From: a bacterium HR29
Lineage (GTDB): Bacteria; Chloroflexota; Dehalococcoidia; Tepidiformales; Tepidiformaceae
Reading direction: 5' to 3'
Assembly (NCBI GenBank): GCA_002898215.1
Contig: BEIF01000002.1
Coordinates: 310,001 to 374,000, forward strand
Length of the DNA stretch: 64,000 nucleotides
Position 1 is the first letter of the stretch, and each line of letters opens with the position of its first letter. A program made the position numbers and the translations under genes. The notes beneath the pieces are model-generated. The model had not been told where the DNA came from, made no database searches, and saw nothing but the letters and a program-made list of their open reading frames with translations. Shown piece by piece: positions 45,248 through 62,911 of the stretch.

Positions 45248-45910
45248 GCCTTTCCTCCCGAGAGGTCAATGGCTGCCGCGTCCCGCCACGGGGAACGCCA
45301 GCGCGGTTCCGCTCGCATCGTGTAGGGACCAGTAGCGCCCTGCCCGACCTCCGAGCGCGACGGGGGTGCCGGCCTTCCCTTCGCCCGGGAAGGGGGAACG
45401 CCCGCGCGCCGCAGGTCCGGAGAGCCGAGGAAAACAGGCGGGGTTTGCTGTCCCGCCCGAACCGGGGACGGCGGAGGCTCCTCCGCCCCTGGGAGGCCCT
45501 GCCTCCGTCGCCGGAAGGGGAACGGTCAGCGCGCAGCCGGAGCAAGCGGACGTGCATCAGCGGCACGCGGTCGGCGCGTCGGACGGACGCCGGCTCCGGT
45601 CGGTCGTTCGGAGGTGAGGGCGGTCGGGAGCGGCGCATTCGTGCGGCCGTCCGCCTTCCGCGGGCCCCGGCTGAGCTGGCACGCCATCGGCCCGCCCCGC
45701 CCCACGCCCCCCTCCCTCTGCCAACGGCGCGTTCCGTGCGGTCGACGAGCCCCTGGCGTGTCCAGCGCGGTCCTCGGGGCGTTGGCCGCGAGAATCCGGC
45801 GACCGACGCGTCGCTCCCTCCGCGGGCGACCGTTGTTCGGGTTGCTCCGAGGGGAGCCGGCCGGTGCGGTCCGAAGAGGGGGAGCGAGGTCCATGAAGGG
45901 GGGTCGTGCA
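45248..45910 (-). other. Long untranslated leader between TPP riboswitch and thiC
   Basis: About 660 bases with no convincing gene on either strand. The frame that fills it on the minus strand (45234-45911) is Arg-rich and shows no third-position GC bias. Several strong hairpins occur, for example CCTTCCC/GGGAAGG near 45372-45393 and GGCGGAG/CTCCGCC near 45471-45488. The thiC ribosome site GGGAGGAAAGG lies right before its ATG. The stretch may be a structured leader, contain an unrecognised RNA, or be the scar of a lost gene. Confidence 0.4.
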
Positions 45911-45911
45911 T

Positions 45912-46004
45912 AGGCTTCCCTCCGCCGGCATTACCCGGATCAGGTTCCGAGGGTTGCTGGGAAGGACCCAGCTCTCAGCCCTTCGATTCGGGCACCCCTA
46001 GCCT
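45912..46004 (-). promoter_or_regulatory. TPP riboswitch (THI element)
   Basis: On the minus strand all conserved THI-box blocks are present in order: GGGGTGCCC, GGCTGAGAG, CAACCCTCGGAACCTGATCC (shown to 20), GGTAATGCC, GCGGAGGGAAGCC. The aptamer is complete, with P1 formed by GGCT and AGCC. Thiamine pyrophosphate binding should reduce expression of thiC, but the coding start lies 660 bases downstream, so the expression platform is not obvious. Confidence 0.93.
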
Positions 46005-46196
46005 GCCAAGCCGTCGCCATTATACGCCCGGAGGAGGGGCGCGTCTGCCGCACACCGCCGCGCGTCGGGCTCCGCTCGGCCTTCGGCATTTCTTGCCTCC
46101 TTCTCGGCGCCTGGGCGCTCGGGGGCATCTTCGTTCGACGGTCGCGTCCCTGAGCCGTTGTCCCTCACGGCATCGGGTGCGCGCGAAACGCCGGCG

Positions 46197-59623: not shown

Positions 59624-59959
59624 CTACCAGCGGCGCCCGCGCCCACCGCCTCGCTGCGTGCCGAACGAGGGGCGCGGGGAGCTGGGTCGGTAGCAGTCGC
59701 TGCAGTAGACCGGTCGGTCTCCGCGCGGCTCGAACGGGAGCTGAGCTTCCCGGCCGCAGGAAGCGCAGACGGCGGAATACGTGGTCCGCTGGGACCGGTG
59801 TCCCCCCGAGGATTCGCCCCGACGAGCGCGCCGGCAGGTGGGGCAGCGCTTCGGCTCGTTCGTGAACCCCTTCGAGGCGTGGAACTCCTGTTCACCCGCG
59901 GTGAACGCGAACGTGGCGCCGCAATCGGCGCAAATCAGGCTTTTGTCGGTGTATGCCAC
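59624..59959 (-). CDS. Double zinc-ribbon protein
   Basis: A 111-residue protein with two treble-clef/zinc-ribbon units: C10-x2-C13 with C39-x2-C42, then C65-x2-C68 with C86-x2-C89. The N-terminal unit, DKSLICADCGATFAFT followed by NEPKRCPTCRRAR, is a type frequent in actinobacterial and Chloroflexota 'zinc-ribbon domain' proteins thought to act in transcription or RNA handling. A Gly/Arg-rich tail may bind nucleic acid. Start ATG encodes MAYTDKS. Confidence 0.8.
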   Translation of the reverse strand: MAYTDKSLICADCGATFAFTAGEQEFHASKGFTNEPKRCPTCRRARRGESSGGHRSQRTTYSAVCASCGREAQLPFEPRGDRPVYCSDCYRPSSPRPSFGTQRGGGRGRRW

Positions 59960-60215: not shown

Positions 60216-61157
60216 GTGTACAGCGACCTCGCTTGCTTCTCCGGCCGAGCCCATCCCGAACTCGCCCGAGCGATCTGCGAGCGGCTCTGCATCCCGCTTG
60301 GGGATGTCGACGTTTTCGAGTTCTCCAACGAGAACATCTTCGTCCAGTACCGGGAGAACATCCGCATGCGGGATGTCTTCCTCATCCAGCCGTTCGCTCG
60401 ACCGGTGAACACGTCGATCATGGAGCTCCTCATCATGATCGACGCCGCCCGCCGTGCCTCGGCAGGACGCATCACAGCCGTCATCCCCTACTACGCGTAC
60501 GGCCGCTCCGACAAGAAGGACCAACCTCGGGTGCCCATCACCGCCCGTCTCGTGGCGAACCTTCTGGAGACGGCCGGCGCCGACCGCGTCCTCACCATGA
60601 ACCTCCACGCGGGGCAGATTCAAGGCTTCTTCAACGTGCCGGTCGACGAACTCAACGCGCTCTACCCGGTGAGCGCATACCTTCGGTCCCTCGGCCTCGA
60701 AAACTACACGGTCGTCGCGCCCGACGTCGGTGACGAGAAGCGCGCGCGCGACATGGCGGCCCGCCTCGACGCTCCCCTGGCGATCATCGAGAAGCGCCGA
60801 ATCGGCAACACGGGCCGAGCGGAGGCGGTCAACGTCATCGGCGACGTGCGGGGGCGGAACGTCCTCATCATCGACGACGAAATCGATACGGCCGGCACCA
60901 TGGCGGAAGCGGTCCGCATCCTCCGGGAGCACGGCTGCCGCGACGTGATGATCGTCGGGTATCACGCTGTGCTCAGCGGCCCGGCCGTCGACCGCCTGCG
61001 GGAGGCCGCCGTCCGGGAGATCGTCGTCACCGATTCGCTCCCCATTCCCCCCGAGAAGCGCCTGCCGAACATGACCATCATCCCGGTCGCCCCGCTCTTC
61101 GGCGACGCCATCAGCCGCATCCATTCGGGGCAGAGCGTGGGGGCGCTCTTCCAGTAA
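60216..61157 (+). CDS. prs: Ribose-phosphate pyrophosphokinase (PRPP synthetase)
   Basis: Makes PRPP from ribose-5-phosphate and ATP for nucleotide, His and Trp synthesis. The 313-residue class I enzyme has the ATP-site FSNENIFVQYRENIRMRDVF, the R-x-x-x-K-D-Q-P loop in YGRSDKKDQPRVPI, the flexible catalytic loop EKRRIGNTGRAEAVNV and the ribose-5-phosphate loop LIIDDEIDTAGTM. The GTG at 60216 is the first start giving the usual N-terminus. A stem-loop leader lies upstream. Confidence 0.93.
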   Translation: MYSDLACFSGRAHPELARAICERLCIPLGDVDVFEFSNENIFVQYRENIRMRDVFLIQPFARPVNTSIMELLIMIDAARRASAGRITAVIPYYAYGRSDKKDQPRVPITARLVANLLETAGADRVLTMNLHAGQIQGFFNVPVDELNALYPVSAYLRSLGLENYTVVAPDVGDEKRARDMAARLDAPLAIIEKRRIGNTGRAEAVNVIGDVRGRNVLIIDDEIDTAGTMAEAVRILREHGCRDVMIVGYHAVLSGPAVDRLREAAVREIVVTDSLPIPPEKRLPNMTIIPVAPLFGDAISRIHSGQSVGALFQ

Positions 61158-61181
61158 TGCCGTCCGGGAACGGTGGCCCTC

Positions 61182-61361
61182 CTAGAAGCGCCACTCCGGA
61201 ACGCGCACGTGGCACCGCCGGCAATAGCGGTCCGTCGGCTCGTAGGGAGCGGCGCATTCGGGGCATCGGCGCTGTTCGGCAGGCCGGACGAGCACGTACG
61301 ACGGTACCCGCAGCCGCCACACGAGCCGCTGCCACCACGATTCGTAGCCACGTCGAAGCAT
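61182..61361 (-). CDS. 59-residue zinc-ribbon protein controlled by a c-di-AMP riboswitch
   Basis: A tiny protein with Cys33-x2-Cys36 and Cys47-x2-Cys50, a complete zinc ribbon; the first half is basic and aromatic (YESWWQRLVWRLRVPSYVLV) and looks like an amphipathic membrane-surface helix. A GGGAGG ribosome site lies 7 bases before the ATG. It is the first coding sequence after the c-di-AMP riboswitch on the minus strand, about 90 bases downstream. The gene is short, but Cys spacing, ribosome site and codon bias support it. Homologues and function unknown to me. Confidence 0.7.
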   Translation of the reverse strand: MLRRGYESWWQRLVWRLRVPSYVLVRPAEQRRCPECAAPYEPTDRYCRRCHVRVPEWRF

Positions 61362-61450
61362 CGGTGTGCCTCCCGTTCAGTGCCGGTTCCCCGGCGTTCT
61401 CCCGCGAGAGGCAACGTCGGCAGGCTGAGCGGCTGCCGGCCGCCTCTCTC

Positions 61451-61574
61451 ACGCCTACGGGGTTAGCTGCCGGGTTCGGTGGAGAAAGTCACCTATCCCG
61501 CCGTGGCGGGAATTCACCCCACAATGTCGGGTCCCCCGTTCCGCTCGGCAGCGGATTCGGCAGCCCAAGCGTAC
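61451..61574 (-). promoter_or_regulatory. Cyclic-di-AMP riboswitch (ydaO-yuaA type)
   Basis: On the minus strand the aptamer has the diagnostic ydaO blocks in order: a 5' TACGC stem half, GAGCGGAACGGGGGACCC, TTGTGGGGTGAATTCCCGCC, the stem CCGCC/GGCGGGA, then CCGAACCCGGCAGCTAACCC and the 3' GTAGGCGT closing half. The GGGGTGAAT and CAGCTAACC pieces are hallmarks of this class. Bound c-di-AMP normally terminates transcription, and an unpaired GC hairpin region follows. It precedes only the 59-residue zinc-ribbon gene on this strand. Confidence 0.85.
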
Positions 61575-61711
61575 CACACCACTGCAAGCCCCCCGAGCCG
61601 AGCAGATCCGAGAGTCGCCTTCGAACGTAAATCGATCGGTCGACACCTGCGAATCGTTCACGCCACCGCAATTGACCGCCACCCCCACCGACACGTCGGA
61701 AGGAGCGCCAC

Positions 61712-62911
61712 GTGCCGTACTTCGACCCCGCTCGACCGTCGTACCTCGAGAACCCCTACCCCGCCCTCGCCCGCCTTCGCCGCGAAGCTCCCGTTGCCTG
61801 GATTCCTACGCTGCAGGCATGGGTGGTCACCGCCTGGGACCCCCTCGCCGAGGTGCTCCACGACCACGCTTCCTTTTCGGCCGACCCCGCCTCCGCCGGC
61901 GGCGAGTTCGGGGCTCGTGTCCGCGCCTCGCGCGCCCGCATACCCCTGGGCGGTGCCCCCATCATGGGGAATAGCGACCCGCCCCTCCACGACCTGCTCA
62001 GGCGCCGGGTGAACCGCTGGTTCACCCCCGCCGCGGTTGCCAGGCTTCGCGCCGACGTCGAACGCGTCGCCAGCGCCCTTCTCGGTGATCTCCCATCGGA
62101 CGCCCCTGTGGACATCATGGGGAGCTTCGCCGAGCGCCTTCCCGTACAGGTCATCCTCCACCTCCTCGGCGTCCCGGCGTCCCAGCAGGCGGCCTTTCGG
62201 ACGGCCTGCCTGGCTATCATGCGTGCGCGGAACGAAGGCGCCGGGAACCCCGAGGTCGTGGCCGACGCGGCGAACGCCGTGGAGCGCCTTGACCGCGTCT
62301 TGAGGGAAGCTCCTCCGGACAGCCTCATCGGGCGGCTCCGTGGCGAAGCGGTGCCCGAGGAGCTCCCGCCGGAACATCTCCTGATGCTCGTGGTCCACCT
62401 CGCCACCGCCGGCAACGGACCCCTGGCGCTCTTCATCGGCAACGCGGTGCTCGCCCTCGCTGCGAACCCCGAAGCCGCCGAGGCTCTCCGGCAGGGGAGC
62501 GTCTCGTGGGTCGCCGCCCTCGAAGAGCTCGCTCGGTTCGATACGCCCACTCACGTCATCTCCCGTTGGGCGAAGGCGCCCGTCGCGCTCGCCGGCCGTT
62601 CGGTTCGGCCCGGCGACACGGTGCACTTGGTGCTCGGCGCGGCGAACCGCGACCCCGCTCGCTTCTCCGAGCCCGACCGTCTCGATTTCGGCCGCCGGCC
62701 GGGTCGGCACGCCGCCTTCGGCCTCGGCGTTCACTTCTGCCTGGGGGCAAACCTGGCCCGTCTCGAGGCCGAAGTTGCGCTTCGTCTTCTCCTGGAGCGC
62801 TTCCCCGACCTGCGGGTGCTGTCCGTGGAACGGCTCCCGTCCTTCCAGCTCCGCGGTCCGCGCCGGCTCGTTCTCGCGCCTCCCTCGTCCTTCGTGCCCG
62901 TTCGGCCATGA
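61712..62911 (+). CDS. Cytochrome P450
   Basis: A 399-residue soluble bacterial-type P450. The haem-ligand motif FGLGVHFC343LGA and the K-helix ExxR (ELAR in ALEELARF) with the RxxD...ARDP-like meander (AANRDPARFSEPDRLDFGR) are clear. The I-helix oxygen-activating motif is abnormal: where AGxDTT is expected the sequence is AGNGPL, so the acid-alcohol pair is missing. It may use another oxidant (peroxygenase-type) or be redox-impaired. Substrate unknown; no ferredoxin partner adjacent. Divergent from the riboswitch unit. Confidence 0.9.
   Translation: MPYFDPARPSYLENPYPALARLRREAPVAWIPTLQAWVVTAWDPLAEVLHDHASFSADPASAGGEFGARVRASRARIPLGGAPIMGNSDPPLHDLLRRRVNRWFTPAAVARLRADVERVASALLGDLPSDAPVDIMGSFAERLPVQVILHLLGVPASQQAAFRTACLAIMRARNEGAGNPEVVADAANAVERLDRVLREAPPDSLIGRLRGEAVPEELPPEHLLMLVVHLATAGNGPLALFIGNAVLALAANPEAAEALRQGSVSWVAALEELARFDTPTHVISRWAKAPVALAGRSVRPGDTVHLVLGAANRDPARFSEPDRLDFGRRPGRHAAFGLGVHFCLGANLARLEAEVALRLLLERFPDLRVLSVERLPSFQLRGPRRLVLAPPSSFVPVRP

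Follow-up and report, generated by a model that had tools for sequence, protein, structure and literature searches.

The locus and its aptamer

The window analysed here, a stretch of 64,000 nucleotides from the bacterium HR29, carries on its minus strand a c-di-AMP (ydaO) riboswitch aptamer followed by a single short gene. The aptamer was recovered by cmscan as a full-length RF00379 match at 61437–61572 (read from 61572 to 61437, model positions 1–134 of 134), with zero non-standard pairs flagged. Its 88.7 bits (E = 2.1e-19) are more than twice the gathering score of 38. The covariance model thereby upholds the ydaO-type aptamer that an earlier, sequence-only reading had placed at 61451–61574 on this strand: its completeness stands, while its 3′ limit had been set about 14 nucleotides too short. 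The genome holds four RF00379 copies in total and encodes one diadenylate cyclase domain (PF02457, 144.6 bits, E = 1.7e-42), a gene whose presence suggests that the host makes c-di-AMP.

Behind the aptamer lies an open reading frame of 59 residues (61182–61361, minus strand), which starts with ATG and is the sole gene on this strand before prs. It coincides exactly with the lone Cys4 coding sequence (61361–61182) named in the earlier reading. A ribosome-binding site, GGAGGC (61368–61373, minus strand), stands six bases ahead of the ATG, and such a site is present in each of the 21 homologues described below, giving the frame the translation signal that its reading as a gene calls for. The convergent neighbour, also as first read, is prs (ribose-phosphate pyrophosphokinase; 60216–61157, plus strand), which ends at 61157 and stays outside the transcript. 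Scanning 61000–61800 returned no sigma-70-type promoter and no terminator. Elsewhere in the window, a TPP riboswitch (RF00059, 76.6 bits) occupies 45900–46009 on the minus strand, and a 111-residue ORF with several CxxC pairs lies near prs (59624–59959, minus strand); it is zinc-ribbon-like and, by eye, unrelated to the 59-residue family.

A family of small zinc-ribbon proteins

A homologue search in 41 genomes gave 16 strong matches, the window's own included, all within the window's own bacterial family; the others show 43–64% identity. A scan of named genomes found homologues in Tepidiforma flava and in other Dehalococcoidia/Chloroflexota assemblies. The total is 21 distinct loci encoding 57–62 residues. 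Among the genomes searched, full-length members are confined to the window's own family (Tepidiforma and relatives, Chloroflexota): samples of the class (294 genomes) and of the phylum (400 genomes) contained none outside it. The remaining matches in these samples are short, restricted to the ribbon and mostly inside longer frames; a longer parent protein was rejected, since the matches inside longer frames cover the ribbon alone. Plasmids and phages yielded no homologue. The genomes of the bacterial family that lack the gene include G012 (one contig, 96% complete) and G006 (98% complete).

GGAGG precedes every start at the 21 loci, and nearly all the proteins end in PEW[RQ][FY]G, of which the window copy lacks the final G. 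Twelve columns are invariant, among them the Tyr and PEW residues and all four cysteines (Cys 33, 36, 47 and 50, forming two CxxC pairs), for which zinc binding is predicted. Pairwise identity at codon positions 1, 2 and 3 is 0.68, 0.71 and 0.52, the third being the least conserved, and the median pN/pS is 0.54. From this pattern of substitution, the ORF is judged to be a real protein family under protein-level constraint.

The window protein passes no Pfam or NCBIfam cut-off, scoring 20.9 against 27.3 for DZR and 19.4 against 25 for Zn_Ribbon_1, and all 16 members scanned show weak matches to DZR and Zn_ribbon_15. The AlphaFold2 model, whose confidence is moderate (pLDDT 70 on average and below 65 in the N-terminal half), has a helix at residues 9–16, then a ribbon of fair confidence. 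Searching solved structures turned up nothing solid: sequence comparison gave E 0.016 at best, and fold comparison gave short zinc knuckles of the RanBP2 type with E no better than 0.8. The hydrophobic moment of the segment that begins with WW averages 0.68, and that of shuffled sequences about 0.34. This N-terminal WWRR stretch comes out amphipathic in most members, with weak values in a few, including 0.43 for the window's. The net charge of the proteins runs from +1 to +7. Because a short amphipathic WWRR segment is joined to a basic zinc ribbon, our best guess is that the protein would act as a peripheral membrane adaptor or as an RNA or complex adaptor.

Linkage between riboswitch and gene

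All 16 strong matches have RF00379 directly upstream, on the same strand of the same genome, and the aptamer's 3′ signature lies 109–153 nucleotides ahead of the start at all 21 distinct loci. The riboswitch had been proposed to control the small protein, and homologues are indeed kept behind it at 21 of 21 loci. Each time RF00379 stands as a cis-regulatory element ahead of a coding sequence, and a conserved hairpin and the ribosome-binding site make up the expression platform. This conservation leads us to conclude that expression of the 59-residue protein is probably under c-di-AMP control. Since aptamer and protein occur together in all 21 loci, the protein very probably belongs to the c-di-AMP response in this group of Chloroflexota.

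The linkage persists despite rearranged neighbours. Upstream and co-oriented prs is seen in 10 of 20 relatives, and in the other 10 the retrieved flanking sequence, short in some cases, did not contain it. In the window, prs faces the riboswitch-ORF unit from the opposite side and converges on it, which is most simply read as a flip of the unit here. A terminator hairpin after the ORF could be aligned in 19 relatives, and 7 of its 12 pairs show compensatory change. This terminator comes straight after the ORF in relatives, and the ORF is therefore the only gene served and the unit monocistronic; the window copy has lost the terminator and 3′ part that its relatives carry. Between stop codon and terminator, most relatives (L061–L087) also hold GUUCCCUCCUC and a hairpin, complementary to some ribosome-binding sites.

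A conserved hairpin and a competing pairing

Right behind the aptamer, the 21 leaders share a hairpin of the form GAGAGGC-(GGCAG...CUGCC)-GCCUCUC. In the window (minus strand), its 5′ arm, GAGAGGC, lies at 61442–61448, and the inner helix is formed by GGCAG (61433–61437), which belongs to a GGCAGCC..CAGCCUGCC segment that is near-invariant in this transcript class, and CUGCC (61419–61423). The 3′ arm, GCCUCUC (61406–61412), is at the same time an anti-ribosome-binding site, able to pair with 61368–61372. Hairpin pairs fit in 97.6% of cells, against 42–46% when slid. Variation in the arms is rare among the 21 leaders, with a single double change, which falls in the inner helix; the covariation measures do not go beyond those of shuffles. 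Across the bacterial family's 111 riboswitches, paralogues show covariation between the arms of the corresponding hairpin (for example GAGAGGC:GCCTCTC, GAGAGAC:GTCTCTC, GGAGGC:GCCTCC). No T-run follows the hairpin in any of the 21 leaders, which places this class outside the canonical terminator type, defined by a hairpin plus T-run between aptamer and gene.

In all 21 leaders the same 3′ arm (GCCUC) also complements the ribosome-binding site (GAGGC), once by way of a double change, and its two pairings are mutually exclusive. At locus L064, UCCUC in the arm faces GAGGA in the site, a G-C pair turned into U-A, which breaks the closing pair of the hairpin and keeps the pairing between arm and site. 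The change is visible only when the arms are matched by motif, and the MAFFT register shows none for the alternative helix, whose direct covariation support is this single event. The base following GGAGG is a C in 20 of 21 genes of the 59-residue class, in 0 of 16 of a 72-residue class described below and in 8 of 34 other riboswitch genes, counts that are uncorrected for the relatedness of the sequences. In fold predictions with the 5′ arm blocked, the probability of arm-to-site pairing averages 0.67 and the accessibility of the site falls from 0.24 to 0.10. Left unconstrained, the full-length leaders of most homologues are predicted to fold into the hairpin (mean 0.70), those of a few into the competing form; for the window sequence, the alternative pairing is predicted only with the 5′ arm blocked. 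Taken together, a conserved hairpin and a competing arm-to-site pairing suggest a translational switch.

Other riboswitch targets in the bacterial family

The first gene behind each of the 111 riboswitches in 24 genomes was clustered. A 72-residue zinc-ribbon protein follows RF00379 in 21 of the 24; the 59-residue family does so in 14 genomes by the automatic rule and in 16 by homology. Further clusters comprise two unnamed families of about 160 residues and glycosyltransferase-like, MFS-like, SulP-like and KamA-like radical SAM proteins, among others. The MFS, SulP and KamA names come from reading the sequences; in Pfam, the glycosyltransferase is just over its cut-off and the radical SAM protein under it. 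In the HR29 genome, one riboswitch precedes a 127-residue ORF and then the KamA-like gene, another an MFS-like gene, and a further one, outside the window (L108, G000:C1:1473880), the 72-residue protein, which is nearly invariant (MPALQEAPP..CPKC..CIMCGYVHE) and whose homologues are widespread in the class. Another genome of the bacterial family, G009, carries eleven RF00379 copies, several ahead of unnamed short proteins.

Proposed mechanism and alternatives

We consider it fairly probable that the locus is a monocistronic c-di-AMP-regulated unit, in which a 3′ arm with two possible partners sets the level of a Cys4 zinc-ribbon adaptor protein. Binding of c-di-AMP to the RF00379 aptamer would decide whether GCCUCUC pairs with the 5′ arm of the hairpin or with the ribosome-binding site of the 59-residue gene, and the pairing chosen would set how much of the small basic protein is made. 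If the ligand-bound form is the hairpin, the ribosome-binding site would be freed and the switch would be ON. The sign leans this way because the terminator-type riboswitches found in these genomes have their terminator, the form expected with ligand, at the position of this hairpin. The protein would most likely use the WWRR amphipathic segment and the ribbon to dock on the membrane, on RNA or on a larger complex, as a peripheral adaptor and one arm of an osmotic or ion-homeostasis response. The most specific version, a family-specific, translational, ligand-activated output whose membrane-peripheral zinc-ribbon microprotein would be a new kind of c-di-AMP effector beside the riboswitch-controlled 72-residue protein, is put forward as a rather doubtful possibility.

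The opposite sign is possible, if on the unlikely side. In an ordinary OFF switch, c-di-AMP would lower expression, as it does for the characterised ydaO riboswitch of the terminator type, for instance because the hairpin halts transcription or because another fold hides the ribosome-binding site, and the kept arm-to-site pairing would be a by-product of Shine-Dalgarno-like and anti-Shine-Dalgarno-like sequence in the two. Such a switch has a precedent in the kdpFABC c-di-AMP riboswitch, the kdp switch of Bacillus thuringiensis being OFF by termination (PMC6488665), and the 72-residue riboswitch gene has a hairpin with a T-run in the same position in several of the same genomes. The hairpin of the 59-residue class, however, is without a T-run, and the double change at L064 saves the alternative pairing at the hairpin's cost, both of which argue against it.

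Two other accounts take the protein out of the centre. That the transcript serves mainly as a regulatory RNA, with a CCCUCCUC stretch and hairpin behind the ORF pairing with remote ribosome-binding sites and the peptide secondary, draws on the presence of GUUCCCUCCUC behind the stop codon in many relatives and on its complementarity to the ribosome-binding site of the 72-residue gene in some, such as G013. It is nevertheless very unlikely, as HR29 itself lacks the CCCUCCUC/GUUCCCUCCUC element at this locus, each genome has just a few copies of the 11-mer, near the backwards-read control, and the ORF is under protein-level constraint. With a per-genome count so close to control, the 3′ CCCUCCUC element was rejected as a trans-acting seed; its antisense strand, read by eye, has no start codon in place. 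Less probable still is a real riboswitch whose ORF is a passenger or a leader peptide without function of its own: the protein's small size and confinement to a single bacterial family would suit a passenger, but its cysteines, Tyr and PEW are invariant over 21 sequences with third-position-biased substitution, and the terminator directly behind it in relatives leaves no other gene to be served.

With the 59-residue protein as the regulated product, an otherwise anonymous microprotein family becomes tied by conserved cis-regulation to a known second messenger, offering a testable entry to its function, and small zinc-ribbon proteins are added to the targets of c-di-AMP riboswitches. Cultured Tepidiforma members carry the unit (Tepidiforma flava), which makes it accessible to experiment. 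Among the open-access papers searched, none was found that reports this target, joins ydaO with a zinc ribbon or joins c-di-AMP with Dehalococcoidia; an earlier mention of the target may exist elsewhere.

Comparison with known systems

Like other members of RF00379 (the ydaO/yuaA leader), the riboswitch described here has a full-length aptamer well over the curated cut-off and a diadenylate cyclase domain in the genome. Its target differs, being a lone small zinc-ribbon protein that has no curated family name, and so does its platform, in which an intrinsic terminator is replaced by a hairpin with a 3′ arm able to compete for the ribosome-binding site. With the zinc ribbons of Pfam (PF12773 DZR, PF13240 Zn_Ribbon_1 and PF17032 Zn_ribbon_15), the protein shares CPxC and CxxC pairs ten residues apart, but it is a single free-standing ribbon with a conserved WWRR N-terminus and a PEW C-terminus. 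A further parallel is the 72-residue protein (MPALQEAPP..CPKC..CIMCGY..): both are small zinc-ribbon proteins encoded directly behind RF00379 in the same genomes, whereas the 72-residue protein differs in sequence, is wider in the class and in many genomes has a terminator-type platform.
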